From a bacterium endosymbiont of Escarpia laminata (GTDB taxonomy: Bacteria; Pseudomonadota; Gammaproteobacteria; Chromatiales; Chromatiaceae), in assembly GCA_003660235.1 (NCBI GenBank), contig QGON01000040.1:1-33229 (forward strand): a stretch of 33,229 nt of DNA. The letters are read 5' to 3'. Position numbers and translations under genes: made by a program. Positions 2,994 to 16,217 of the stretch are shown here, in pieces; within the stretch, counting starts at the first letter, position 1, and each line of letters begins with the position of its first letter. The notes under the pieces are model-generated. The model saw nothing but the letters and a program-made list of their open reading frames with translations, ran no database searches and had not been told where the DNA came from.

Positions 2994-3980
2994 ATGTTCG
3001 GATTTGGAAAGAAGAAAAAAGCGGAGCAGGCAGCAACGTCTGAACCATCTCCACAAGAGAAACAGGGACTCTTCTCACGTCTCAAAGAGCGTCTTGCGCG
3101 CACCCGCCACAACCTCACCGACGGCCTGGCCGACCTGGTGCTGGGCCGCAAGACCATCGATGATGAACTGCTGGAAGACCTGGAGACCCTGCTGATCACC
3201 GCCGATGTGGGCGTCGATGCCACCAGCCGCATCATCGACGACCTGACCGGGCGGGTCAAACGCAAAGAACTCGACAATCCCGAAGCGCTGAGCCGTCTTC
3301 TCAAGACGCAACTACTCGACATTCTGCAAGCTTGCGATGCACCCCAGGCAAAAGCGGAACAGGATAAACCCCTGGTAGTGTTGATGATTGGCATCAACGG
3401 TGCGGGCAAGACCACCACCATCGGCAAGCTGGCGCGCAAGCTCCAGATGGACGGCGAGAGCGTGATGCTTGCCGCCGGCGATACCTTTCGCGCCGCCGCC
3501 GTTGAGCAGTTGCAGGCCTGGGGCGAACGCAACGAAGTGCCGGTGATCGCCCAGCACACCGGCGCCGATTCCGCGTCGGTCATCTTCGATGCCCTGAAGG
3601 CCGCCACGGCCAGGAAAATCGACGTGTTGATCGCCGACACCGCCGGCCGTCTCCACACCAAGACCAATCTGATGGACGAATTGGCCAAGATCGCCCGGGT
3701 AATGAAGAAGATCGACCCTTCTGCCCCCCACGAGGTGCTGCTGGTGGTCGATGCGGGCACCGGACAAAACGCGGTCAATCAGGCGGTACAATTCAACGAG
3801 ACGGTTGGACTGAGCGGCATCGTCATCACTAAACTGGACGGCACCGCAAAGGGCGGCGTGATCTTCGCCATCGCCGACAAGGTAAAGGTGCCGATCCGTT
3901 TTATCGGCGTCGGCGAGGCCATCGAAGACCTGCGGGAGTTCGATGCCAAAGAGTTTGTGGACGCCCTGTTCGAGCAGTAG
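2994..3980 (+). CDS. ftsY: Signal recognition particle receptor FtsY
   Basis: A 328-residue SRP receptor GTPase that docks SRP-bound ribosomes at the inner membrane. After a short Lys-rich N-terminus comes the four-helix N domain (about residues 25-105), then the NG GTPase domain with P-loop GINGAGKTTT, the DTAGR motif and TKLDGTAKGG. It lacks the long acidic A domain of the Escherichia coli protein, as in many other gammaproteobacteria. AGGA lies 11 bp upstream of the ATG. ftsE starts 5 bp after its stop, so ftsY-ftsE-ftsX form an operon, as in E. coli. Confidence 0.98.
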   Translation: MFGFGKKKKAEQAATSEPSPQEKQGLFSRLKERLARTRHNLTDGLADLVLGRKTIDDELLEDLETLLITADVGVDATSRIIDDLTGRVKRKELDNPEALSRLLKTQLLDILQACDAPQAKAEQDKPLVVLMIGINGAGKTTTIGKLARKLQMDGESVMLAAGDTFRAAAVEQLQAWGERNEVPVIAQHTGADSASVIFDALKAATARKIDVLIADTAGRLHTKTNLMDELAKIARVMKKIDPSAPHEVLLVVDAGTGQNAVNQAVQFNETVGLSGIVITKLDGTAKGGVIFAIADKVKVPIRFIGVGEAIEDLREFDAKEFVDALFEQ

Positions 3981-3985
3981 ATCTG

Positions 3986-4657
3986 ATGATTCACTTCGAT
4001 AACGTCAGCAAGCGCTACCCCGGCGGGCATACCGGCCTGGCTGGCGTCAGTTTCCGTATCGAACCGGGAGAGATGGTCTTCCTCACGGGCCATTCAGGCG
4101 CAGGCAAGAGTACCCTGCTTAAACTGATCGGCCTGCTGGAACGTTCCAGCGGCGGCCAGGTGCACGTCAACGACCGCAATCTCACCCGTCTGAAGAGCAG
4201 TCAGATTCCCTATCATCGGCGCGAGGTGGGGATGATCTTCCAGGATCACCGGCTGCTGAACGACCGTACCGTCTTCGACAACGTGGCACTGCCGCTTGTC
4301 GTTTCTGGCCTGGGGTACAAGGAGATCTCCCGCCGCGTGCATGCAGCACTGGATAAGGTCGGGTTGCTGAACAAAGAGAAGGCTGCGCCGATCACCCTTT
4401 CCGGCGGCGAACAGCAGCGGGTCGGCATCGCCCGCACGGTAGTGAGCAAACCCCCACTGGTGCTGGCGGACGAACCCACCGGCAACCTGGATCCGAAACT
4501 CTCCCAGGAGATCATGGAACTGTTCGGATGGTTCAATCAGGTCGGCGTCACCCTGCTCATCGCCACCCATGATCTCGACCTGATCTCCCGCATGGACAGG
4601 CGCATCCTCACCCTGCACAACGGACAGCTGGTGCAGGACACCGGGAAGACAGAATGA
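3986..4657 (+). CDS. ftsE: Cell division ATP-binding protein FtsE
   Basis: A 223-residue ABC ATPase that works with FtsX at the divisome to activate peptidoglycan amidases through their activators. Visible motifs: Walker [11 protein letters not shown]-loop in IFQDHRLL, signature [13 protein letters not shown], Walker [13 protein letters not shown] and switch His in [10 protein letters not shown]. Its TGA overlaps the ATG of ftsX (ATGA), the usual coupling for this pair. Confidence 0.98.
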
Positions 4658-5616
4658 GCAGGGGGCGCAACAATCCGATGCAGCGCCGTCCGGGATTTCG
4701 TCCCGATATCTGGCTGCAGCGCCATCTTCAGGTGGCACTGGCCAGCCTGGGACGACTTATGAACGCTCCCCTGGGCACCCTGATGACCGCCGCCGTGATC
4801 GGTATCGCCCTTGCCCTGCCCATCGGCCTGCACGTTTTGCTCAACAATCTGCAGAATGTCAGCGGTGGCTGGGAAAGCGGTGCCAGCATCTCCCTTTTCC
4901 TGCAGCAGGAGATCAGCGACAAGCAGGCCACCGCGCTGAGCAAAAAACTCCGTCTGCACCAACGCATCGAATCGATTCAGGTCATCTCCAAGGCATCGGC
5001 GATGGCGGAGTTTCGCCGTCTGAGCGGATTTGGGGACGCCTTGAAGGCCCTCGACAGCAACCCGCTGCCCGCTCTGCTGGTAATCCTGCCAAAGCGCGAA
5101 TACAGCACACCCGAGACGGCCCAATTGCTGGTGCGTGAACTCGGCCTGCTGCCGGAGACCGATATCGTCCAGCTCGACCTGCAGTGGGTACGGCGTCTGC
5201 AGGCGATCACCGAGATCGCCCAGCGAGCGGTGCTTGTACTCGCCACCCTGCTGGGACTGGCGGTGCTGCTGATCATCGGCAATACGATCCGCCTGGAGAT
5301 TCAGAACCGGCACGCTGAAATCGAGATCACCAAACTGATCGGCGCCACCAACGGCTTCATCCGCCGCCCCTTCCTCTACACCGGCCTCTGGTACGGACTC
5401 TTCGGCGGCATCATCGCCTGGCTGCTGGTCGCCATCTCCATCCTGCTCATCAGCGGCCCGGTGGCGGAACTGGCGATGCTCTACCAGAGCGCCTTCGACC
5501 TCTCCTCCCTGGATATCACCACCACCCTGCTGTTGCTTACCGGCAGCGCCGGACTGGGCCTGTTAGGCTCCTGGATCGCGGTGGGGCGGCATTTGAGTGC
5601 GATTGAGCCAAGTTAG
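4654..5616 (+). CDS. ftsX: Cell division protein FtsX
   Basis: A 320-residue integral membrane partner of FtsE. A cytoplasmic N-terminus of about 40 residues is followed by a first membrane segment (about 40-63), a periplasmic extracellular loop of about 125 residues, and three further segments (about 191-211, 245-270 and 292-313), the FtsX/MacB-like topology. The start overlaps the ftsE stop by 4 bp. In E. coli and many relatives rpoH follows directly; here rpoH is displaced to 17455. Confidence 0.97.
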   Translation: MSRGRNNPMQRRPGFRPDIWLQRHLQVALASLGRLMNAPLGTLMTAAVIGIALALPIGLHVLLNNLQNVSGGWESGASISLFLQQEISDKQATALSKKLRLHQRIESIQVISKASAMAEFRRLSGFGDALKALDSNPLPALLVILPKREYSTPETAQLLVRELGLLPETDIVQLDLQWVRRLQAITEIAQRAVLVLATLLGLAVLLIIGNTIRLEIQNRHAEIEITKLIGATNGFIRRPFLYTGLWYGLFGGIIAWLLVAISILLISGPVAELAMLYQSAFDLSSLDITTTLLLLTGSAGLGLLGSWIAVGRHLSAIEPS

Positions 5617-5866: not shown

Positions 5867-6721
5867 ATGCATCGCGGACAAAAGAACCTGATTTGGGACA
5901 AACTGAGTACCCTCTTTCTGCTCACCCTTCTGACACCCGGTTCGCTACTGGCAGCGTCCCTGACGGTGGCCGGCACCGGCGATAGCCAGGCCCTGCTGCG
6001 TAGCATTGCCAAAGCCTATTCCACGGCGCATCCTTCCGAAAAGATTGTGATCCCCGACAGCATCGGCTCCCGAGGCGGGATCCGCGCCCTGACTCTGGGC
6101 AAGGTGCCCATGGCGCGCATCGCCCGGCCCTTAAAGCCAAACGAGGCCAAGCCTGGCCTCAACCAGCACCTCTTCGCCCGCTCGCCAGTCGTGATCGTGC
6201 TCAATCCCTCAGTGAGCGGTCTCAGCGGCCTCTCCAGTGAACAGGTTGTCGGTATCTTCTCCGGCCGCATCACCCGGTGGGAGGATGTGGGCGGTCCACA
6301 GGGGAAGATCTATGTGGTGGAACGTGAGGCAGGGGATTCATCCCGCAGTGTACTGAAAAAGCAGATGCCCGATTTCAAGGATTTCAAACCCGTGGGCAAG
6401 GTCTTTTTCAACACCCAGCAAGCGGCAGACGCTATCGCCTCCCACGCCAACACTATCGGTTTTCTGCCCCTGTCAGAGGCGATTCAGCATAACCTCAGCA
6501 TCATGGCCGTAGATGGAGTTCAACCCAACGAAGCCAGTGTGCAAAGCGGCGCTTATGCCTACGTAACCCCCTTCTATCTGATCTCCCAGGGCCGGCCCGA
6601 GGGATTGGCTCTTCGGTTTCTCGACTACATCTACAGCGACGCCGCGCAGGAACTTATCCGCGAAGCCAGCGTCATTCCGGTCGCCCGGCAAGGGCCTGGT
6701 CCGGCAGGGGCGACCGAGTGA
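5867..6721 (+). CDS. PstS-like periplasmic substrate-binding protein
   Basis: A 284-residue protein with a signal peptide (about residues 1-30, ending SLLAA) and the PBP-like fold of phosphate-binding proteins: an N-terminal LTVAGTGDSQALLRSIAKAY segment, a central SPVVIVLNPS strand, the SSEQVVGIFSGRITRWEDVGG segment typical of PstS relatives, and a C-terminal LRFLDYIYSDAAQELI helix. No pst permease genes follow. Instead its TGA overlaps the GTG start of a Cache-domain hybrid kinase by 4 bp, so its likely job is to present a ligand to that sensor; the ligand (phosphate, another oxyanion or something else) is unknown. AGGAG precedes the ATG. The 250 bp upstream holds the ftsX hairpin and a possible TTGACA (5707-5712) without a clear -10. 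Confidence 0.85.
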   Translation: MHRGQKNLIWDKLSTLFLLTLLTPGSLLAASLTVAGTGDSQALLRSIAKAYSTAHPSEKIVIPDSIGSRGGIRALTLGKVPMARIARPLKPNEAKPGLNQHLFARSPVVIVLNPSVSGLSGLSSEQVVGIFSGRITRWEDVGGPQGKIYVVEREAGDSSRSVLKKQMPDFKDFKPVGKVFFNTQQAADAIASHANTIGFLPLSEAIQHNLSIMAVDGVQPNEASVQSGAYAYVTPFYLISQGRPEGLALRFLDYIYSDAAQELIREASVIPVARQGPGPAGATE

Positions 6722-9700
6722 GCAGAAAAATCGTTAAAGCCAGCGCCTTCAGATTTAACTCCCTGCGCAGCAGGCTGGCTCTATTGCTGACGCTTGTCAT
6801 CCTGGCAGTAGGGCTGCTCATGGCCGCCATCAGTTACCAGCATTTAGCGGTACATATCGACGAGGCGCATCCTAATGTGATGAAGCTCCATGCCGAATCA
6901 GTGGCCGGCAAGATCAAGCTGTTCCTGCGAGAGACCGGGAACATTGTGCGCCAGATCGCCACCAATCCAGCCGTGGAGAAGTACTTTACCAGTGACAACG
7001 TTGTTGCCCTGGAGCGCTATCTTACACAGTTTAGTGAAAGTTACCCGGTTATTGCCTATATCAATTCCACCGGCCAGGAAGAGATCAAGATCGTCGGCGG
7101 TCAGTCCATTATTGACGACATGGTCGATGTCGCCACCACGCCCGCCTTCAAACGCGCTGCATTTGCTCCCAACAAATACGTGGTGGGCGAGTCCCACCAT
7201 GGGGAGCTACCGGAGACACCCCTGCTGGACGTAGCCTACCGTTACGTCAATTTCTTTGATGAGGTAGTCGGCACGATCCGGGCCTCCATCCCCCTCACAA
7301 AGATTCGTAAGATCGTCCATGAAACCCCCCTGGGGAAAGGGGGTTTCTTCATTGTTACTGATGCCTACGGGAAGATCGTCTACAGCCCCTGGAAGGAGGA
7401 CCTGACTACTCAGCTGCATGCCCATAGGGATATAGGACTGGCCCTGGCGGAGCAATTGCAGCAAGGCAATTCAGTCTCCGGGTTCTATGAGCTGTTTGGT
7501 GGGGATTATTTTGTGGTGGGAAACTCGCTAGCTGAATACGGCTGGCAGGTATTCGCAACCATGCCACAGGACAGCTACCTGACGCCTCTGCATGAATTGA
7601 GAGACCAATTGCTGCTGACCACCAGCGCTATCATGCTGCTGGGATTCCTGCTGGCGCTCTACCTCAGCAAAGAGACAGCCAAACCCCTGGTCAAATTCAC
7701 CCAGCTCATCTCCGGCATTGGCGGGCTCACAGATCTGTCGGCCCGCGTTGATCATCCCGGCAAGGACGATGAGCTAGGGCAGTTGGCAAAGGCCTTCAAT
7801 GAGATGTTAACGCGGCTGCAAGCTACCCATGTCGAGATCGAAAATCACCGACGCTTCATCGATCGAATCATGGATTCCATGGATGAAGGGGTGATTGTTC
7901 TCAACAGGCGTGGCCAGATAGAACTGGTCAATCGGGCTGCTCAGGGTCTTACGGGAATGACAGAAGAAAAGCTGCTGGGCGGCGTAATGCGCGGCCTGTT
8001 CGCCGAATCAGCCTGTTTTGCCACCCGCAGTAATGATTCGCAATCCCTGCTGGGTAGCCGCGAGGATAATATCAAGACACTGGACGGGCGACAGATTCCA
8101 GTCATAGTCTCAGGATCTCTGATGGACGGCGACGGCGACGGCGACGGCGACGAGATTAAGGGAATTGTACTGGTGCTACAAGACATCAGTGAACGCAAGC
8201 GTGCTGAAAAACACCAACTTGCCAGGCAGCAGGCTGAGGAAGCAAACAAAGCGAAATCAAACTTCCTCGCCACCATGAGTCATGAGATACGCACCCCCAT
8301 GAACGGGGTATTGGGGATGCTGCACCTGCTGGAGAAGACGCAACTGAGCGACACTCAGAGACGCTATATCACGACCGCGAGCCACTCCAGCGAACTGCTG
8401 CTCTCGGTTATCAATGACATTCTGGATTTTTCCAAGCTGGAGTCCAAAAAGCTGGAACTTGAATCTCTGGCATTCAATCCGATTGTCCTGATCGAGCAGA
8501 CGGCGACGATGCTGGCCAAATCGGCTCACCAAAAAGGCCTTGAATTGATCTGCTCCATAGCACCGGAGGTTCCCTGTGCGATCAAGGGTGACCCCACGCG
8601 CCTGCGCCAGATCCTGACCAACCTTGCCAACAACGCCATCAAATTCACCGAAGCCGGTCAGGTGGCCCTCTATGCCTCCTATACGGACGAGCGGATTTAC
8701 TTTGGCGTTGTCGACACCGGCATCGGCCTGAATGAGGAACAACAAAAAAGCGTATTCGAGGCATTCACCCAAGCCGACAACACCCACACACGCAAGTACG
8801 GCGGCACCGGCCTGGGACTGGCGATCAGCCACGCACTGGTAAAGTCCATGGGCGGCTCTCTCGAACTGACCAGTGCGCCGAAAATCGGCTCTGATTTTCA
8901 TTTTGATCTGCCTGCCGTGGAACCGGACGAGGAGAGCTGTCGTCTCGTGCCCCCTGAATCCTTGTCCTCGAAACGCATCTTGCTGGCAGACGATCAGGTA
9001 AGTACCCGGAACGTCATTGAACGCATGCTGAAAACCTGGGATTTGCAAGAGATTGGCCAGGCAAGCACGGGGAGCGATGCGGTGACCCAAGTCAGAACCG
9101 CAGCAGCCGATAATAAACCCTACGATATCGTCCTTCTGGATGTGGCCATGCCTGGGATCGCGGGCAGCGAACTGGTACAGGCCATCTGCTCCAAAGCCGG
9201 ATCACATAAACTCCGCATCGTGGAGTTGCGTACCCTGAATCAAAGTGAAGAGCCGGTGCCGGGAGTGGATGCCTGGATAAACAAACCGATCAGCCAGTCG
9301 GATCTCTTTGGTACCCTGCTTGAACTCTACGGCGAATCGATCGCTGCTCATGGTTCAAATCATGCAAAAGATGCCCAGGAGTGGTGGTTTGGCGGCAGCA
9401 AACTCTTGTTGGCGGAGGACAACCCCGTCAACCAGGAGGTGGCGACCGAGATACTGACCAGCGCCGGCTTCAGCGTCGATATCCGGGAAAACGGGGCGGA
9501 GGCAGTCGCTGCCGTGCAAGAGAACTCCTACGATGCGGTACTGATGGATATTCAGATGCCTGTCATGGATGGTCTCACTGCGGCCCGGAAAATTCGCGAA
9601 CTCGGCGATGATTACGCGGATCTTCCCATCCTTGCCATGACCGCACACGCACTGACCGGTGATAAGGAGAAGAGCCTGGAAGCGGGAATGAACGGACACA

Positions 9701-10401
9701 TCACCAAGCCCATCAATCCCCACGCCATGTTCAGCGAACTTGCCGAATGGATTGCTCAGAGCAAAAAACCGCAGCAATCCGATCAGGGACAAGAACAGAC
9801 AGAGAGTGAACCACTGCCGGAACTGCCAGGCATAGATACAGCGGATGCCCTTGATCGTATTGGTGGCAATCAGAGCGCCTACCGAAGAATACTCAGGAAC
9901 TACCGCGACATGAACATCGACCTGGTGGATCGCATCGCAGCGGATATCCGCAGTGAGGAGTTAACCGAAGCCGCACATACGGCTCACTCCCTCAAAGGCA
10001 GCAGCGGCAACATCGGCGCAAAACAGGTCCATCAAAATGCCGCCTCGGTGGAACAACACTGCCGCAACGATCGACCTGCCCAGGCGCTGGAAGCGTTGGA
10101 AAAGCTGCACATCAGTCTACAGCAAGTAATCGACGGACTGACTCAACTGGATGAACCCACAGACGAGTCGACTCCCATTGAGAACAACGCCGATATTGAT
10201 CCCGATGAACTACAGAACTTACTGCGACAACTTGAAGGGTATCTGGATACCGACTTGAGGCAGGCAGGGGCCTTGCTGAAAGAGGTCCAACAAAAAGTGA
10301 ACGGTACAGAATTCAGTCACTCTTTGACCGAGATAAAGCAGGCATTGAATGATTTTGATATCGATGCCGCCAAAGCAATTATAGGACGCATCAGGCTGTA
10401 G
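6718..10401 (+). CDS. Membrane hybrid histidine kinase (Cache-HAMP-PAS-HisKA-HATPase-REC-REC-HPt)
   Basis: A 1227-residue sensor kinase starting at GTG, coupled to the PstS-like gene. Order by eye: membrane segment (about 18-40), extracytoplasmic Cache-type sensor (about 45-295), second membrane segment (about 297-318), HAMP (to about 370), PAS (about 378-505), HisKA with phospho-acceptor H522 in ATMSHEIRTPMNG, HATPase with N-box around N638-N639 and GGTGLGLA, receiver 1 (probable D808), receiver 2 (D944 in VLMDIQMP), HPt (H1090 in AHSLKGSS) and a C-terminal helical tail. It is built for a multistep phosphorelay without its own DNA-binding output. The PAS region carries an Asp-Gly repeat from a hexanucleotide microsatellite. 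Its C-terminal part is nearly duplicated in the kinase at 11068. Confidence 0.93.
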   Translation: MSRKIVKASAFRFNSLRSRLALLLTLVILAVGLLMAAISYQHLAVHIDEAHPNVMKLHAESVAGKIKLFLRETGNIVRQIATNPAVEKYFTSDNVVALERYLTQFSESYPVIAYINSTGQEEIKIVGGQSIIDDMVDVATTPAFKRAAFAPNKYVVGESHHGELPETPLLDVAYRYVNFFDEVVGTIRASIPLTKIRKIVHETPLGKGGFFIVTDAYGKIVYSPWKEDLTTQLHAHRDIGLALAEQLQQGNSVSGFYELFGGDYFVVGNSLAEYGWQVFATMPQDSYLTPLHELRDQLLLTTSAIMLLGFLLALYLSKETAKPLVKFTQLISGIGGLTDLSARVDHPGKDDELGQLAKAFNEMLTRLQATHVEIENHRRFIDRIMDSMDEGVIVLNRRGQIELVNRAAQGLTGMTEEKLLGGVMRGLFAESACFATRSNDSQSLLGSREDNIKTLDGRQIPVIVSGSLMDGDGDGDGDEIKGIVLVLQDISERKRAEKHQLARQQAEEANKAKSNFLATMSHEIRTPMNGVLGMLHLLEKTQLSDTQRRYITTASHSSELLLSVINDILDFSKLESKKLELESLAFNPIVLIEQTATMLAKSAHQKGLELICSIAPEVPCAIKGDPTRLRQILTNLANNAIKFTEAGQVALYASYTDERIYFGVVDTGIGLNEEQQKSVFEAFTQADNTHTRKYGGTGLGLAISHALVKSMGGSLELTSAPKIGSDFHFDLPAVEPDEESCRLVPPESLSSKRILLADDQVSTRNVIERMLKTWDLQEIGQASTGSDAVTQVRTAAADNKPYDIVLLDVAMPGIAGSELVQAICSKAGSHKLRIVELRTLNQSEEPVPGVDAWINKPISQSDLFGTLLELYGESIAAHGSNHAKDAQEWWFGGSKLLLAEDNPVNQEVATEILTSAGFSVDIRENGAEAVAAVQENSYDAVLMDIQMPVMDGLTAARKIRELGDDYADLPILAMTAHALTGDKEKSLEAGMNGHITKPINPHAMFSELAEWIAQSKKPQQSDQGQEQTESEPLPELPGIDTADALDRIGGNQSAYRRILRNYRDMNIDLVDRIAADIRSEELTEAAHTAHSLKGSSGNIGAKQVHQNAASVEQHCRNDRPAQALEALEKLHISLQQVIDGLTQLDEPTDESTPIENNADIDPDELQNLLRQLEGYLDTDLRQAGALLKEVQQKVNGTEFSHSLTEIKQALNDFDIDAAKAIIGRIRL
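8125..8151 (+). repeat. In-frame hexanucleotide microsatellite (GACGGC)4
   Basis: Four perfect GACGGC units plus a GAC half unit encode alternating Asp-Gly within a predicted loop of the PAS domain of the membrane hybrid kinase. Slippage here would change loop length by Asp-Gly pairs without breaking the frame. Confidence 0.9.
9764..9910 (+). repeat. 147-bp identity island shared by the two hybrid kinases, copy 1
   Basis: This stretch, covering the receiver 2 to HPt linker and the first HPt helices, is base-for-base identical to 13061-13207, while the flanks differ at many positions. A second island, 10172-10259, is identical to 13469-13556 (88 bp). The patchwork suggests gene conversion or a recent partial duplication. 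Confidence 0.9.
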
Positions 10402-10463
10402 GCGCCTACATCTAAGGATCAATTACAAACTATTTTCTAATATCGTTATCAGGAATGGAAATC

Positions 10464-11075
10464 ATGGACTTACACAAGACTGCAGTAATTTTAATCGGCT
10501 ACCAGAACGACTATTTTGCTGAGGACGGCATCCTGCAAGGAGTAATCGAAGAACCCGGACGGGCCTCTACCGTTCTGGCAAACACCATCGCCCTGATCGA
10601 ACGGCTTCGACCAACGCCGGTTCACCTGATATCGACACCTATCGTTTTCACGCCCGACTACTCTGAACTGGTCGAACCGATGGGTATCCTCAAGGTGATT
10701 AAGGATGTCGAAGCATTCAAACAGGGTACCAAAGGGGCCGAAAACATCCCGGAATTTCTGGAGTTCGGAGAGCGAATTCTTGAGGTCCCGGGCAAAAGGG
10801 GACTCAATGCCTTTTCGAACACACAGTTGAACGACATACTCCAGGAAAAAGAGGTCACCGATGTCGTGCTGGCGGGTGCGGTCACATCGATATGCATAGA
10901 TTCTACGGGCCGGGCCGCTTTCGAGAACGGGTATACGATTCACATCCTCAGCGATTGCACGGCTGGGCGCACCTCCGTCGAGCAGTCGTTCTACTGTGAG
11001 ACGATCTTTCCGCTCTATGCTGAAGTGATCGATAGCACAACTTTGCTTGCACGCGGCGGAGTCATCGATGGCTGA
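10464..11075 (+). CDS. Isochorismatase-like cysteine hydrolase homologue lacking the catalytic Asp
   Basis: A 203-residue protein of the isochorismatase/nicotinamidase fold. The ATG at 10464 is preferred because AGGA sits 10 bp upstream; another ATG at 10455 adds three residues. The family triad is Asp-Lys-Cys. The nucleophile Cys (C144 in VTSICIDST) and Lys (K111 in VPGKRGLNAF) are present, but the Asp of the usual VIDMQNDF motif reads Gly (G12 in LIGYQNDYF). It may be a ligand-binding pseudoenzyme or use another acid. It lies between two hybrid kinases, 62 bp after one, and its stop overlaps the start of the next by 8 bp, which ties it to the signalling operon. Its substrate is not predictable. 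Confidence 0.85.
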   Translation: MDLHKTAVILIGYQNDYFAEDGILQGVIEEPGRASTVLANTIALIERLRPTPVHLISTPIVFTPDYSELVEPMGILKVIKDVEAFKQGTKGAENIPEFLEFGERILEVPGKRGLNAFSNTQLNDILQEKEVTDVVLAGAVTSICIDSTGRAAFENGYTIHILSDCTAGRTSVEQSFYCETIFPLYAEVIDSTTLLARGGVIDG

Positions 11076-13704
11076 CGTGCATGATCGGCGACCGGATCCA
11101 TCCGAGCTGGAGTTACAGGTCCGGTACCATCTCATGGAAGAGCTTTCGCGCTCTGAGAGCCGGTACCGGACGCTGATCGAACACCTGCACGAGATTGTTT
11201 TCCAAGCCGACGACCAATTCTGCTTCACGTTTCTCAACCACGCCTGGAGCACAGTGACGGGCGGCGCTGTGACTGAAGCCACTGGCCTGCCAATCGTCAA
11301 CTTTATTGCCGAATCGAGTCGGGAAACCTGGAAGGCATTTCTCAAGGAGCACCGGAAAGGCACACTGAAGGGCAACATTCCGGAGTTGTGTCTGCGCCAC
11401 GCCGATGGTGGACATCGTTGGGTGACGTATTACATCGAAAGAGATAATTTGGAAAGCGACTGGATAGGCTCGATGCACGACATCAGCGAGCGCAAGCAGG
11501 CTGAAAAACTACAGCTTGCCAAAGAGCAAGCGGAGGACTCCAATCGGGCGAAATCGAATTTTCTTGCCACCATGAGCCATGAGATCCGAACTCCCATGAA
11601 TGGGGTGTTGGGGATGTTGCATCTGCTTGAGAAGACAGCTCTGGACGAGAAACAGCAACGCTACGTGAATACGGCAGCCAGCTCCAGTGAATTGCTACTC
11701 AGCATTATCAACGACATCCTGGATTTCTCGAAACTGGAATCCCAGAAGCTGGAACTGGAATCAATCGCCTTTAACCCTATTTCCCTGATAGAGGAAACGG
11801 CTGTGCTGTTGGCCAAAAGCGCCCACCAAAAAGGCTTGGAACTGATCTGCTCAATAGCCCCTGAGGTTCCGTGTCTGATTAAAGGGGATCCCACGCGTTT
11901 ACGACAAGTCCTGACCAATCTTGCCAATAACGCCATAAAATTCACCGAAGACGGCTATGTGACTCTTTACTCCTCCTATCTGGATGACCGGCTTTACTTC
12001 GGTGTTGTTGATACCGGTATTGGCCTGACGGATGAACAGCAGCAAAAGATATTTGCGGCATTCAGCCAGGCAGACGATTCTCATACTCGCAAATATGGTG
12101 GCACTGGCCTGGGGCTTGCAATCAGTCAGCGCCTGGTGGAGGCAATGGATGGCTCTCTTGAGGTAGCCAGTGCGCCGGGAATCGGCTCGAATTTCTACTT
12201 TGATCTCCCGGTCGAGTGGCTATCTGAAGAATCCTGTCGCTTGACGCCCCCGGAATCGCTGTCCAGCAAACGCATTTTGATTGCAGATGATCATGTAGCT
12301 GCACAGGCTGCGATTGAGCGCATGCTCAAAAGCTGGGGTATAGCGAAGATCGGGCTGGCAAATGATAGTAATGATTCACTGGCTCAACTCCAGGCTGCAG
12401 CAGCCAGCCACCAGGACTATGACATTATCTTGCTGGATATGGATTTACCCGGCATGGCGGGAACCGAGTTGGTGCAGGCCATCCACTTCCAAGCCGGGCT
12501 GTATGAACTGCGTATCGTAGCATTGTGTACCCTGGATCAAAGCGAGGAGCCGATGCAGGGTGTGGATGCCTGGATAAACAAACCGATCAGCCAGTCGGAT
12601 CTGTTTGACACACTGCTGGATCTCTACGGAGAATCAGTAGCCACTCGTGACTCAGACAATGCCAACAACACCCAGGAGTGGTGGTTTGGTGGTCGCAAGC
12701 TCTTGTTGGTGGAGGATAACCCCGTAAACCAGGATGTGGCGAGAGAGATACTGGCCAGTGCTGGTTTCACTATTGATATCCGGGAAAACGGTGCGGAGGC
12801 CGTCGCCGCCGTGCAAGAGGGTTCCTACGATGCGGTACTGATGGATATTCAGATGCCGATCATGGATGGTCTCACCGCAGCCCGGAAAATCCGCGAGCTC
12901 GGCAGTGATTACGCGGATCTTCCAATCCTTGCCATGACCGCGCACGCACTGGCTGGCGATCGTGAGAAAAGCCTGCAAGCGGGAATGAATGGGCACATCA
13001 CCAAACCCATCGTTCCCAACGATATGTTCAGTGAAATTGCTGCATGGATCACACAGAGCGAAAAACCGCAGCAATCCGATCAGGGACAAGAACAGACAGA
13101 GAGTGAACCACTGCCGGAACTGCCAGGCATAGATACAGCGGATGCCCTTGATCGTATTGGTGGCAATCAGAGCGCCTACCGAAGAATACTCAGGAACTAC
13201 CGCGACAGAAACCTGGACGTGGTAGAGCGTATCACCGCGAATATCCACAACCAGGAACTGGCCAAAGCCGCGCACACGGCTCACTCCCTCAAAGGCAGCA
13301 GCGGTAACATCGGCGCCAATCAAGTCCATCAATATGCCGCCTCGGTGGAACAACACTGCCGCAACGATCAGCCTGCCCAGGCGCTGGAAGCGCTGGAATA
13401 TCTACGCACCAGTCTGCAGCAGGTGATCGACGGCTTGGCTCAACTGGATGAGCCCGCAGACGAGTCGGCTCCCATTGAGAACAACGCCGATATTGATCCC
13501 GATGAACTACAGAACTTACTGCGACAACTTGAAGGGTATCTGGATACCGACTTGAGACAGGCAGGGGTCTTGCTGAAAGAGATCCAGCAAAAAGCGAAAG
13601 GCACAGAATTCAGCCACTCTTTGAGCGAGATAGAACAAGCATTGAATGAATTTGACATCGATACTTCTAAAACCATTATTGGACGCATTTGGAAAAAGGC
13701 GTAA
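11068..13704 (+). CDS. Soluble hybrid histidine kinase (PAS-HisKA-HATPase-REC-REC-HPt)
   Basis: An 878-residue kinase with no membrane segment. The ATG at 11068 is chosen because GGAG lies 7 bp upstream; an in-frame TTG at 11047 would extend it by seven residues. Order: PAS with PAC-like end (about 25-150, ending IGSMHDISERKQAE), HisKA with H171, HATPase (NLANNAIKF, DTGIGL, GGTGLGLA), receiver 1 (probable D457 in ILLDMDLPG), receiver 2 (D593 in VLMDIQMP), HPt (H739 in AHSLKGSS) and the same helical tail as its neighbour. From HisKA onward it closely resembles the 6718 kinase, including two stretches of perfect DNA identity, so one arose from the other by tandem duplication with a different sensory front. 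Its start overlaps the isochorismatase-like gene by 8 bp. Confidence 0.93.
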   Translation: MADVHDRRPDPSELELQVRYHLMEELSRSESRYRTLIEHLHEIVFQADDQFCFTFLNHAWSTVTGGAVTEATGLPIVNFIAESSRETWKAFLKEHRKGTLKGNIPELCLRHADGGHRWVTYYIERDNLESDWIGSMHDISERKQAEKLQLAKEQAEDSNRAKSNFLATMSHEIRTPMNGVLGMLHLLEKTALDEKQQRYVNTAASSSELLLSIINDILDFSKLESQKLELESIAFNPISLIEETAVLLAKSAHQKGLELICSIAPEVPCLIKGDPTRLRQVLTNLANNAIKFTEDGYVTLYSSYLDDRLYFGVVDTGIGLTDEQQQKIFAAFSQADDSHTRKYGGTGLGLAISQRLVEAMDGSLEVASAPGIGSNFYFDLPVEWLSEESCRLTPPESLSSKRILIADDHVAAQAAIERMLKSWGIAKIGLANDSNDSLAQLQAAAASHQDYDIILLDMDLPGMAGTELVQAIHFQAGLYELRIVALCTLDQSEEPMQGVDAWINKPISQSDLFDTLLDLYGESVATRDSDNANNTQEWWFGGRKLLLVEDNPVNQDVAREILASAGFTIDIRENGAEAVAAVQEGSYDAVLMDIQMPIMDGLTAARKIRELGSDYADLPILAMTAHALAGDREKSLQAGMNGHITKPIVPNDMFSEIAAWITQSEKPQQSDQGQEQTESEPLPELPGIDTADALDRIGGNQSAYRRILRNYRDRNLDVVERITANIHNQELAKAAHTAHSLKGSSGNIGANQVHQYAASVEQHCRNDQPAQALEALEYLRTSLQQVIDGLAQLDEPADESAPIENNADIDPDELQNLLRQLEGYLDTDLRQAGVLLKEIQQKAKGTEFSHSLSEIEQALNEFDIDTSKTIIGRIWKKA
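13061..13207 (+). repeat. 147-bp identity island shared by the two hybrid kinases, copy 2
   Basis: Identical to 9764-9910. The bases just outside the block differ (A against G on the left, T against G on the right), which defines the edges. The companion 88-bp block is 13469-13556, matching 10172-10259. Confidence 0.9.
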
Positions 13705-13719
13705 AGGGAAGAGACGGCA

Positions 13720-14829
13720 ATGAACACAGAAAAGAAACGCATCCTTATCGTGGACGATTCGGCAGATGACATCCACTTCGTAATGGAAAGCTTCTCAAAT
13801 GATTATGCGGTGTTGGCCGCCACCAGTGGCGAAAAGGCGTTGCAGATAGCGGACAGAGAGCCTCACCCCGACGTCATCTTGATGGATGTGGAGATGCCGG
13901 GTATGAATGGATATGAGACCTGCCGGCGTTTGAAGGAAGCCGAGTCCACACAGGATATAGACGTGATTTTCGTATCATCCCACGATACAACAGAAGAAAA
14001 ACTTGCCGGTTACGATGCGGGCGGCAGCGACTACCTTATCAAACCAGTTCAGCCGGAAATGTTGCTACAGAAGGTCAAGCTGGCCATTAATAACAGGGCT
14101 GAGCGTGAGGCATCAGCGGAGGAAACCACCTCGGCCATACAGACGGCAATGACTGCTCTCTCTAACATCGGCGAACAGGGTGTGATCATTGATTTTATGC
14201 GGCGTAGTTTTTTGGTTGACAACAGTAAAACCCTGGCAAGACTGATCGTGGAAGCCACCGCCAGTTATGGACTGGAAAGCAGTGTGCAGATCAACAACTC
14301 CGGGAAGCCCGTCTATGCAAGCAGCAGTAAGTCTATACCACCGCTGGAACAGGAACTCCTGTCAAGACTCACGAAAGAGACACGGATCCTGGAAAGCGGC
14401 AGCAGACTGATCTTTAATTTTGGCGCTGTCTCGCAACTTATTAAAAATATGCCGAATGATGATGAGCGGCACGGCAGGCTGCGTGATCATCTGGCCATTC
14501 TGCTGGAAAGCGCTGAGGCTCGTGCCAAAACATTGGCCATTCAGACAGAACTTGCCAGTGTTGTGGCTGACTCCAATCAAACACTACTGGAAATTGAGGA
14601 TCTACAGAAAACACAGCAACAGTCAGGCATGCAGATCATGGATGATGTACTGCGGAATATTGAAACAGCATTTTTCACTTACGGACTGACCGAAGATCAG
14701 GAAAAAAAGATCACAGATATCGTGCAGCTTGGCGTGGATAAATCGCTGACGAACTTAGAGCAAGGTCTCAAACTCAATCAGCAATTTCATGCAATCATCG
14801 ATCGTCTGGCACAATTTTCATCCATGTAA
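13720..14829 (+). CDS. Response regulator with unrecognised C-terminal domain
   Basis: A 369-residue protein starting 15 bp after the soluble kinase. Residues 1-125 are a standard receiver: acidic pair in ILIVDDSADD, phospho-acceptor D56 in VILMDVEMPG and Lys in YLIKPVQPEM. Residues about 140-369 contain no helix-turn-helix, GGDEF, EAL or HD-GYP motif that I can see. They appear mixed alpha/beta at first (NSGKPVYASSSK, SRLIFNFGAV), then a long helical stretch from about residue 250 that may form a coiled coil. It is the natural phosphate acceptor of the two HPt-bearing kinases. Output is probably by protein contact rather than DNA binding, but that is inference. Confidence 0.85.
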   Translation: MNTEKKRILIVDDSADDIHFVMESFSNDYAVLAATSGEKALQIADREPHPDVILMDVEMPGMNGYETCRRLKEAESTQDIDVIFVSSHDTTEEKLAGYDAGGSDYLIKPVQPEMLLQKVKLAINNRAEREASAEETTSAIQTAMTALSNIGEQGVIIDFMRRSFLVDNSKTLARLIVEATASYGLESSVQINNSGKPVYASSSKSIPPLEQELLSRLTKETRILESGSRLIFNFGAVSQLIKNMPNDDERHGRLRDHLAILLESAEARAKTLAIQTELASVVADSNQTLLEIEDLQKTQQQSGMQIMDDVLRNIETAFFTYGLTEDQEKKITDIVQLGVDKSLTNLEQGLKLNQQFHAIIDRLAQFSSM

Positions 14830-14897: not shown

Positions 14898-16217
14898 TCA
14901 AGCGCTAATCCGCCGTACCGTACTGGGCGTAGCACTCGCCTGCGCCTTGATGGTTACATCCTCCTTCTGACGCTTGGTGGGAATCTTAACCGTGGAGATG
15001 ATAACTGCGGCGATGAGACTCAAGACGCCGGTGATGATGAAAGCAAGCAGATAGTTGTTCATGTCTCCCAGGTAACCGCCGAGCATGGGACCGACGGTAC
15101 CACCCAAGCCATAGGCAAGAAACACATAGCCGTAGTTCTGGCCAAAGAACTTATGTCCGAAGGTGTCTGTGGTGATGGCGGGAAACAGCGCGAAGTTGCC
15201 GCCAAAATTAAAACCAATGAGCGCGGCGAACAGGTAGAGCGAGTATTCGAACCCAGCCACATAGGGAAATACGATAACGAACACCCCCTGACTGGCCGCC
15301 ATAATGATCAGCGAGGTCCTACGCCCCCGATGATCGCAGTTGACCGCATGGCCGATGATGTCACTGATCTTGCCCCAGCCGATGCGCCCAAGCGCATTGA
15401 AGATGGCGAACACCACCATCGCAGTACCGGCGGTCGCGTCGGCCAGCGTTTCAGCCATACCGGACGCTGTGAGGGCCTGACTCGGAAACTGCTTCATCAG
15501 ACCGATACACATCAGACCTGCGGTGGCACCGATGGCAAAGGTGGAGAAGATCGACCAGTAGTGAGTGGTTCTGATCATCTCCTCACTGCGGAAATCAAAC
15601 TTACTGCCTTTCTGATCCGGCTTCGGCGGTACGAACTCTGGAGGAAAACTCATCCACAGGCTGCCGATCAGTACCAATACCATGAATAACCCACCGTAGA
15701 TCATGAAGGTGGTACCTATACCATAGTCAGCAATCAGACCGCCCCAGGTACCCGCCAGCTTTACCCAGATCATGGCTCCCAGCCCAAAACCGGCTACTGC
15801 AACGCCGGTGATTAGGCCCTTCTTGTCCGGGAACCATTGCATACCGACCGCAATGGGCACCACATAACCGAGCCCGATGCCCGCACCGCCCAGGAGTCCG
15901 ACGCCGATCAGGGTCGGCCAGAAACTCTCTCCGCCCATAACACCGGCAAGCAGATAACCGGCACCCAGCATGATGCCGCCGGCAGCCGTCAGCTTGCGGG
16001 GACCGAATACGTAGAGCTTACGCCCCGCATAGACCATCACCAGCGCAAAGGCCACCAGCCCTACTGTGAACGGCCACTGGGTATCGGATGTCGACCAACC
16101 TGAAACCTGCAACGGTTTCGCAAATACTGACCAGGCATAGATCGCGCCGAGAGAAAGCTGTATTAACAGCGCTCCAAATATCACCCACATTCCGTGATTA
16201 CTTTTACTGCTCGACAT
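14898..16217 (-). CDS. MFS transporter, oxalate/formate antiporter (OFA) family
   Basis: A 439-residue membrane protein with about twelve hydrophobic segments and a central cytoplasmic loop near residues 195-215. The N-terminus (HGMWVIFGALLIQLSLGAIYAWSVFAKPL) is typical of the OFA branch of the major facilitator superfamily, as is the following W-x-x-S-D-T-Q-W-PF stretch. The family moves small carboxylates such as oxalate/formate; many members have unknown substrates, so transport of a small organic acid is an inference. It is monocistronic, convergent with the signalling operon, and ends with a short charged tail. Confidence 0.9.
   Translation of the reverse strand: MSSSKSNHGMWVIFGALLIQLSLGAIYAWSVFAKPLQVSGWSTSDTQWPFTVGLVAFALVMVYAGRKLYVFGPRKLTAAGGIMLGAGYLLAGVMGGESFWPTLIGVGLLGGAGIGLGYVVPIAVGMQWFPDKKGLITGVAVAGFGLGAMIWVKLAGTWGGLIADYGIGTTFMIYGGLFMVLVLIGSLWMSFPPEFVPPKPDQKGSKFDFRSEEMIRTTHYWSIFSTFAIGATAGLMCIGLMKQFPSQALTASGMAETLADATAGTAMVVFAIFNALGRIGWGKISDIIGHAVNCDHRGRRTSLIIMAASQGVFVIVFPYVAGFEYSLYLFAALIGFNFGGNFALFPAITTDTFGHKFFGQNYGYVFLAYGLGGTVGPMLGGYLGDMNNYLLAFIITGVLSLIAAVIISTVKIPTKRQKEDVTIKAQASATPSTVRRISA

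Follow-up and report, generated by a model that had tools for sequence, protein, structure and literature searches.

Interchangeable input cassettes on a shared phosphorelay chassis at a putative sensor-swapping site in a tubeworm endosymbiont

The stretch of DNA analyzed here (the window) spans 33,229 bp of contig QGON01000040.1, from assembly GCA_003660235.1 of an endosymbiont of the tubeworm Escarpia laminata (4.25 Mb in 71 contigs), and the element under study is a run of five genes, A to E, at positions 5867 to 14829. Judged from its sequence, this locus is not one conserved system but a phosphorelay chassis that two plug-in cassettes use in common as their inputs. In five of the six genomes of the genus comparison (G000 to G005, where G000 is the window's own), the chassis, formed by the HisKA-HATPase-REC-REC-HPt part of hybrid kinases together with the response regulator E, sits at a single site that adjoins ftsX and/or an MFS transporter gene. 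The model that we consider probable, if well short of assured, is a sensor-swapping site in which chassis and E stay fixed, the input cassettes are interchangeable, the pseudo-isochorismatase C acts as a docking sensor, and both kinases signal to E. The genes, the putative exchanged cassette, and the flanking anchors are as follows.

5867-6721, plus strand: gene A, PstS-like periplasmic binding protein (PBP_like_2 match and hydrophobic N terminus), probable input partner of B
6718-10401, plus strand: gene B, membrane dCache-HAMP-PAS-HisKA-HATPase-REC-REC-HPt hybrid kinase (Pfam), with the shared chassis part at 8231-10401
10455-11075, plus strand: gene C, pseudo-isochorismatase (Isochorismatase match), with Gly15 at the catalytic Asp position and Lys114 and Cys147 retained
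11047-13704 (probable start ATG 11068), plus strand: gene D, soluble helix-PAS-HisKA-HATPase-REC-REC-HPt hybrid kinase (Pfam)
13720-14829, plus strand: gene E, terminal response regulator, REC (D56) plus approximately 240 residues (Pfam)
5895-8230, plus strand: putative exchanged input cassette 1, gene A from codon 10 and the Cache-HAMP-PAS half of B (blastn breakpoints)
2994-5616, plus strand: left anchor, ftsY (2994-3980), ftsE (3986-4657), and ftsX (4654-5616) (Pfam SRP54, ABC_tran, and FtsX)
14898-16217, minus strand: right anchor, MFS transporter (MFS_1)

Gene organization and relay domains

The five genes described in a first-pass annotation, made from the letters alone, were recovered as open reading frames on the plus strand, and its overlaps and gaps fit these coordinates or in-frame alternative starts. 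A and B overlap by 4 bp, C follows B after 62 bp (from ATG 10464) or 53 bp (from ATG 10455), C and D overlap by 8 bp when D starts at ATG 11068, and D and E are separated by 15 bp. Its domain assignments likewise agree with Pfam. B presents dCache_1 at 40.5 bits (cut-off, 45), followed by HAMP, PAS, HisKA, HATPase, two REC, and HPt domains, with hydrophobic segments starting at residues 20 and 298, and D presents PAS, HisKA, HATPase, two REC, and HPt domains and no hydrophobic segment above threshold. The motif MSHEIRTP occurs in both kinases, AHTAHSLKGSSG in both HPt domains, and DVILMDVEMP in E; the HisKA histidine, REC aspartate, HPt histidine, and separate REC aspartate make up a full His-Asp-His-Asp set in B, D, and E. 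Among NCBIfam profiles, the two kinases score best with BarA and TorS, hybrid kinases with the same HisKA-HATPase-REC-HPt relay, but the equivalog cut-offs are missed for both BarA (890; B, 462.5; D, 476.5) and TorS (676.5; B, 443.9; D, 457.3). B and D differ from these kinases in having two REC domains, a common tail behind HPt, and a neighboring regulator without a recognized DNA-binding domain.

The same annotation proposed the five genes as a candidate multi-component phosphorelay, to be checked by conserved co-occurrence of the five families in other genomes. A multi-input relay is a reasonable functional reading of the sequence, but the conserved five-gene set does not hold. The Cache half of B is found at E ≤1e-20 in 1 of 55 genomes, the window's own, with no match in the other 54, five congeners included, and the C subfamily is found at E ≤1e-15 in 4 of 55, again counting the window's own. 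The five-gene set was rejected as a conserved system. The pieces that recur are the chassis with E, A with a membrane HAMP sensor, and C with a helix/PAS partner, each with different partners elsewhere.

Different inputs at one site

The ftsX gene was found in all six genus genomes, in G001 as its C-terminal half only, and the MFS gene was found in five of the six; in G000, G002, and G005, the array and its two anchors form one contiguous stretch. The kinases upstream of E have core and tail in common to a varying degree, but not their inputs. In G002 and G005, the input consists of an ethylbenzene-dehydrogenase-like (EB_dh) protein and one kinase. The array of G004 starts with an EB_dh-like pair, followed by C and D, a Tll0287-like kinase, and an MHYT-PAS kinase. 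That of G001 is enlarged and partly duplicated beside the MFS gene, in the order TonB receptor, YfiR-like protein, CHASE8 kinase, PAS open reading frame with a kinase, C and D, E, MFS gene fragment, kinase tail fragment, and a second E, with half of ftsX left beyond the TonB receptor gene. At ≥64% identity, the HPt-plus-tail segment is confined to this locus (two copies in G000, four in G001, one in G002, four in G004, one in G005, and none in G003), and the next best matches reach ≤38%. A point against a single fixed site is that G004 yielded no right anchor and that its array is distributed between two contigs, one of them with ftsX. In G003, assembled in approximately 210 contigs, a 38-bp match to the end of ftsX adjoins the MFS gene, and no array was detected at this place.

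Pairs of a partner protein and a sensor are known from YfiR-YfiN of the YfiBNR system. The YfiR-like protein ahead of the CHASE8 sensor in G001 follows the same logic of partner and sensor half, but its output is a hybrid kinase with the common tail; the window itself holds no such pair.

In G001, the MFS gene fragment between the two copies of E (L042, 7115-7750; G001:C1:73079-73741) looks as if a tandem duplication had enlarged the array. The C-terminal half of ftsX lies at L103, 3972-4940, with open reading frames nearby that resemble insertion sequences by eye. In G003, the MFS gene region (L101, G003:C157, 166-5625) is flanked by tightly packed genes for a TIR-domain protein (800 amino acids), an ARMT1-like protein, an isochorismatase-family protein with the ordinary Asp, and an AIR-synthase-like protein; PADLOC retrieved one match among them, SAVED_TIR at 27 bits, on the TIR protein.

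Breakpoints of the putatively exchanged block

In blastn comparisons with G002, G005, and G004, DNA homology runs through ftsX and the leader up to position 5894, nine codons into gene A, interrupted by a gap in G005 (approximately 100 bp) and in G004 (20 bp). Homology resumes at 8231 (G002), 8251 (G005), and 8233 (G004), which corresponds to the start of HisKA at residue 505 of B. The nonhomologous block of approximately 2.3 kb in between encodes the PstS-like protein and the Cache-HAMP-PAS half in the window and an EB_dh-like protein and another sensor half in the other three genomes, and the surroundings of the start codon of A are recognizably similar in G002. Nucleotide identity between B and the three EB_dh-associated kinases is 37 to 39% in the input half (in G004 over 108 codons only), 87 to 91% in HisKA-HATPase, 86 to 89% in REC1, and 90 to 91% in REC2. 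Other pairs present the same mosaic pattern. The PAS kinase of G001 and the Tll0287-like kinase of G004 are 89% identical in the kinase core with different inputs, and D of G004 is 95% identical to D of the window in the core, 74% in HPt, and 69% in the tail, the tail being nearer to that of the G001 CHASE8 kinase (83%).

The differing inputs could instead be ordinary ancestral paralogues that were lost differentially in each lineage and never exchanged, and the multi-kinase arrays of G001 and G004 make loss from a bigger ancestral array possible. Such a history is improbable in light of the breakpoints: B and the EB_dh-associated kinases are the same gene from HisKA onward (87 to 91%) but unrelated upstream, the limits nearly coincide in three comparisons, the leader and the first nine codons are similar, and the input half of B is without a match in the five congeners at E ≤1e-20. 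We infer that recombination exchanged the cassettes, with its limits at the start of the partner gene and at HisKA.

In a passage of PMC4603909, the shuffling of kinase input domains is called rare, and domain loss followed by gain is deemed likelier than direct shuffling. The present case resembles the shuffling treated there in having different inputs on related kinases, but here close relatives differ by a partner gene and half a kinase, at one site and with sharp limits. As far as the open-access literature was searched, this replacement of a partner gene with a half-kinase at one site is new, whereas domain shuffling, sensors paired with binding proteins, and detachable sensors of the cytosol are already known in kind.

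Identical tracts between the kinase tails

B and D were noted in the first-pass annotation to carry the same REC-REC-HPt tail, and parts of these tails turned out to be identical DNA, including two long tracts.

9764-9910, plus strand: 147-bp tract, candidate conversion tract, identical to 13061-13207 in D
10172-10259, plus strand: 88-bp tract, second identical tract, identical to 13469-13556 in D

The kinase cores of B and D are approximately 66 to 80% identical, with about half of the 4-fold sites the same, and downstream of the core the identical runs extend to 147, 88, and 41 bp. None of 5,000 shuffles of codon columns reached 147 bp (longest shuffled run, 71 bp), and chance was rejected as the origin of the identity. 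The tract is consistent with gene conversion. Likewise, no shuffle in 5,000 reached the observed run for the Tll0287-like and EB_dh-associated kinases of G004, for the PAS kinase and the kinase fragment of G001, or for D and the fragment of G001 (observed, 84; longest shuffled, 81). Thus, four of the seven same-genome pairs stand at 0 of 5,000. The remaining three give weak or no support, with 173 (EB_dh-associated kinase and D, G004), 153 (EB_dh-associated and MHYT kinases, G004), and 368 (CHASE8 and PAS kinases, G001) of 5,000. Between genomes, the run shared by D of G004 and the G001 CHASE8 kinase was reached in 28 of 5,000 shuffles.

Gene A and its sensor partners

Gene A matches PBP_like_2 (E = 2.3e-30), and its nearest solved chain is 1twy; the cut-offs of the curated PstS models are missed (TIGR02136, 105.6 against 206.6 bits; TIGR00975, 26.9 against 205 bits). 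Among 369 genomes of the class, relatives at E ≤1e-30 occur in 6, the window's own included. In all five matches outside the genus, the next gene on the same strand encodes a HAMP signaling protein, namely, a dCache-PAS-GGDEF-EAL protein, a dCache histidine kinase, another histidine kinase, and two chemoreceptors. Two of these five neighbors have no Cache domain in Pfam, which counts against the model.

Pairs of a periplasmic binding protein and a sensor are known, as in TorT-TorS and LuxP-LuxQ. PstS is also described as acting with a chemoreceptor in Pseudomonas aeruginosa, in a statement cited within PMC9796306. A likewise adjoins a Cache-HAMP membrane sensor, and homologous pairs end in a histidine kinase, GGDEF-EAL, or chemoreceptor output. 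The difference from these known pairs is that the whole pair varies among congeners as a block ending at HisKA.

Gene C is a pseudo-isochorismatase

Gene C matches the Isochorismatase family (PF00857; 8.5e-34, 117.6 bits; cut-off, 27) and no other Pfam family at E ≤1, heme domains included, and has 3kl2 as a solved relative. Isochorismatase-like cysteine hydrolases use an Asp-Lys-Cys triad. This triad is incomplete in C, in which Gly replaces the catalytic Asp, and the name pseudo-isochorismatase given in the first-pass annotation is right; 3kl2 has Glu at this position. A scan of genome contigs yielded 181 relatives, and the best 80 of these (L112 to L191) all retain the Gly, the Lys corresponding to Lys114, and the Cys corresponding to Cys147. 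These loci include records of G001, G004, G012, G223, and G375, so that the samples overlap. The invariance of the Gly is tempered by one of the two search patterns having contained it: 44 loci matched the Gly pattern only, 33 matched both, and 3 matched only the other, these 3 also having Gly. Four loci outside the genus that were retrieved by BLAST, independently of the peptide patterns, all have Gly. As a control, 33 matches to PF00857 in 28 relatives gave 30 loci, with 25 Asp, 1 Asn, and 4 Gly. The four Gly loci belong to the C subfamily, all with a PAS partner and three with the partner helix (described below) over threshold, and the 26 Asp or Asn loci have neither helix nor PAS partner within their 1.5-kb flanks.

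The subfamily is sparse in the class, with matches at E ≤1e-28 in 5 of the 369 genomes (G000, the window's own, with G012, G145, G223, and G375), and is spread over ten named phyla. The 80 loci and the window comprise Cyanobacteriota (29), Pseudomonadota (20), Planctomycetota (11), Verrucomicrobiota (6), Myxococcota (4), a single row from each of five further phyla, and 6 rows for which no phylum is given. In a quick tree, the C of the window groups with L112, L113, and a Desulfogranum fusion (Shimodaira-Hasegawa-like approximate likelihood ratio test, 97), a placement that suggests transfer between distant lineages. An antiphage reading of C was rejected, with no PADLOC match at E ≤0.01.

Alternatively, C might be active as an amidase-type enzyme and supply or consume the ligand of the D PAS domain, in which case it would be linked to D through metabolism and not as a bound subunit. 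The triad Lys and Cys, invariant in all 80 loci, count for this possibility and against a purely sensory protein, since C could keep some chemistry, and the NCBIfam profiles that score highest for C, far under cut-off in each case, describe biuret amidohydrolase, an unnamed hydrolase, and RutB. A NodU-type carbamoyltransferase open reading frame lies near 21 of the 80 loci, on either side (median, approximately 1,260 amino acids; e.g., L140, 9512-13300), and the one representative that was scanned also contains a methyltransferase domain. An enzymatic role is nevertheless unlikely given the Gly at the catalytic Asp position in all 80 loci and in the four BLAST loci, the natural fusions that join C to a kinase, and the location of the best-kept partner region in a helix ahead of the PAS domain. 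The reading of C as a sensing subunit that has presumably lost hydrolase activity is therefore preferred. Biuret amidohydrolase and RutB act on ureido compounds, and because carbamoyltransferase genes lie near C and these profiles score best, an amide or carbamoyl compound is our guess for its ligand.

Signaling partners of C share an N-terminal helix

By a fixed same-strand rule, the output at the 80 loci is a histidine kinase in 42, a hybrid histidine kinase in 15, a GGDEF/EAL protein in 6, a Ser/Thr kinase in 3, and a Ser/Thr kinase with a histidine kinase in 1. Along the tree of C, at least 5 changes of output are needed when histidine and hybrid histidine kinases form one class beside GGDEF/EAL proteins and Ser/Thr kinases, in a count for which six labels were set by hand and unlabeled rows were left uncounted. 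C and a kinase are joined in one open reading frame at L114 (Desulfogranum mediterraneum, 859 residues) and L186 (727 residues).

The best-kept part of the partner N terminus is a helix with the consensus ELxxQIQYRLIExLSxSERRYR, which in D corresponds to the following feature.

11101-11166, plus strand: candidate docking helix of D for C, SELELQVRYHLMEELSRSESRY (profile match at 11101-11211, model positions 1 to 37, D being a row of that profile)

A 22-residue profile built from 24 partners (threshold, E ≤1e-2) detected the helix at 68 of the 80 loci, of which 61 have it within 400 bp downstream, 2 in the fusions, and 5 elsewhere; at three Ser/Thr kinase loci (L156, L166, and L177), it follows the kinase domain. 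Among 160 other fetched sequences, the window included and several overlapping one another, the helix was present in 13, all with C, and in none of the 143 without C; C was present with the helix under threshold in 4 more. A 37-position profile gave 43 matches in 41 of the 369 genomes. Five of these start at position 1 or 2, in G000, G012, G145, G223, and G375, the same five genomes that have C, and the remaining 38, none of which begins before position 6, mainly cover the generic PAS cap. The hypergeometric probability of this coincidence is 1.8e-11, with the position criterion picked after the table had been viewed and rows of four of the five genomes present in the profile; what remains informative is that G145 matches and that such matches are absent elsewhere. 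G318 has a relative of the partner whose match begins only at position 8 and misses the front of the helix, and no C was found within the 3.1 kb around it or in G318 at E ≤1e-28.

Several observations count against the pairing of C with a signaling protein through this helix. By the same-strand rule, 7 of the 80 loci have no signaling partner and 6 more are unclassified; in this group, L162 and L184 have a Ser/Thr kinase behind a second isochorismatase-like gene, L177 has a Ser/Thr kinase upstream, and L118 and L174 have histidine kinases. The helix was missed at 12 of the 80 loci, including 5 GGDEF-EAL and 4 Ser/Thr kinase loci. Furthermore, the predicted structure of the L114 fusion shows no docking: its helix stretch is helical (predicted local distance difference test [pLDDT], 75 to 80), but residues 201 to 210 of the linker have a pLDDT of 58, and the predicted template modeling score (pTM) is 0.66 with no confident interface.

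Stand-alone sensors encoded beside kinases or diguanylate cyclases are known from H-NOX/HnoK and NosP/NahK. C resembles them as a small cytosolic protein that lies beside, and probably regulates, a histidine kinase or GGDEF-EAL protein, with a variable partner output. It differs in its isochorismatase fold with the catalytic Asp lost, in lacking a heme domain in Pfam, and in partners that have a common helix motif and include Ser/Thr kinases. A pairing of an isochorismatase-like protein with a kinase was not found in the open-access literature (titles and abstract openings, with few subscription journals or preprints), which leaves its absence unproven; as far as this search goes, the module of pseudo-isochorismatase and helix across output classes is new.

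At three Phycisphaerales loci, a second divergent isochorismatase-like gene follows the pseudo-isochorismatase gene (L162, 3708-4271; L179, 1554-2186; L184, 860-1492). In the two of these that were scanned, L162 and L184, a Ser/Thr kinase comes after it.

Regulator E and the proposed convergence of both kinases

Behind its REC domain, E has approximately 240 residues with no Pfam match above cut-off and no OmpR/PhoB, NarL, or NtrC-type output domain in Pfam at E ≤1, and its NCBIfam scores are far under the equivalog cut-offs. The predicted structure (mean pLDDT, 88; pTM, 0.52) shows long helices that surround a mixed alpha/beta stretch, and structure searches with residues 140 to 369 returned match lists taken up by REC folds. 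Because no DNA-binding or enzymatic domain is recognized, E probably acts through protein contacts. Its two PADLOC matches, at residues 2 to 134 and 4 to 65, lie in or around the receiver domain. Orthologues that are 84 to 91% identical end the array in G001 (twice), G002, G005, and G004 (where the contig end cuts it), and none at this level was found in G003.

E may answer only one of the two kinases or be regulated mainly through its C-terminal part, which, at 240 residues without an assigned function, leaves room for this view. The window genome has 127 REC matches, so other targets of B and D are possible, and the E orthologue of G265 (C-terminal part, 44% identical) does not adjoin any hybrid kinase, a point that also weakens the proposed convergence. 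This alternative is somewhat unlikely when set against the position of E directly behind a chassis kinase in all five genus genomes that have it and behind a D-type chassis kinase with the same tail in G336 and G370, outside the genus (C-terminal part, 57 to 58% identical). Convergence of both kinases on E is thus the reading retained in the model.

Proposed signaling scheme

In the sensor-swapping model, each cassette would supply the sensor half of a kinase, in many cases together with a partner protein responsible for primary sensing. In cassette 1, the periplasmic A would report to the Cache domain of B. In cassette 2, the cytosolic C would dock on the helix at the N terminus of D, adjacent to its PAS domain. 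Its ligand would be a small molecule that C could not turn over normally, perhaps an amide or carbamoyl compound, and the binding of this ligand would change the activity of D. Both kinases would relay phosphate from His to Asp to His through their REC and HPt domains to Asp56 of E, which in turn would act by protein contacts. Partial homogenization of the tails by gene conversion would keep the kinases compatible with E.

A broader generalization, on which we are evenly divided, is that pseudo-isochorismatases act across phyla as detachable sensing subunits that feed through one docking helix into histidine kinases, GGDEF-EAL proteins, and some Ser/Thr kinases, and that tubeworm symbionts exchange subunit-plus-sensor cassettes with a fixed cut at HisKA, retuning one phosphorelay. 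The locus offers a concrete and testable case of natural sensor exchange at nucleotide resolution, in which the HisKA start marks a natural cut point for chimeric kinases. It also leads us to propose a new input type for several signaling output classes, a pseudo-enzyme with a short helix, with many cyanobacteria (29 of the 80 loci) among its carriers.

A second array with an E paralogue

A paralogue of E (approximately 36% identical) ends a second array of the same habit. Its inputs are an ABC_sub_bind protein, a CHASE kinase, and a further kinase in G000, colinear in DNA with G003; a PstS-like protein, a dCache kinase, and a further kinase behind the remains of G000-type genes in G002; and a TonB receptor, a YfiR-like protein, and a CHASE8 kinase in G001. 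Beside the paralogue, a REC-HD gene (Pfam HD_5) lies on the opposite strand at L047, 6432-7493, and, by position and length, at L055, 9419-10480, and may indicate a link to cyclic di-GMP.

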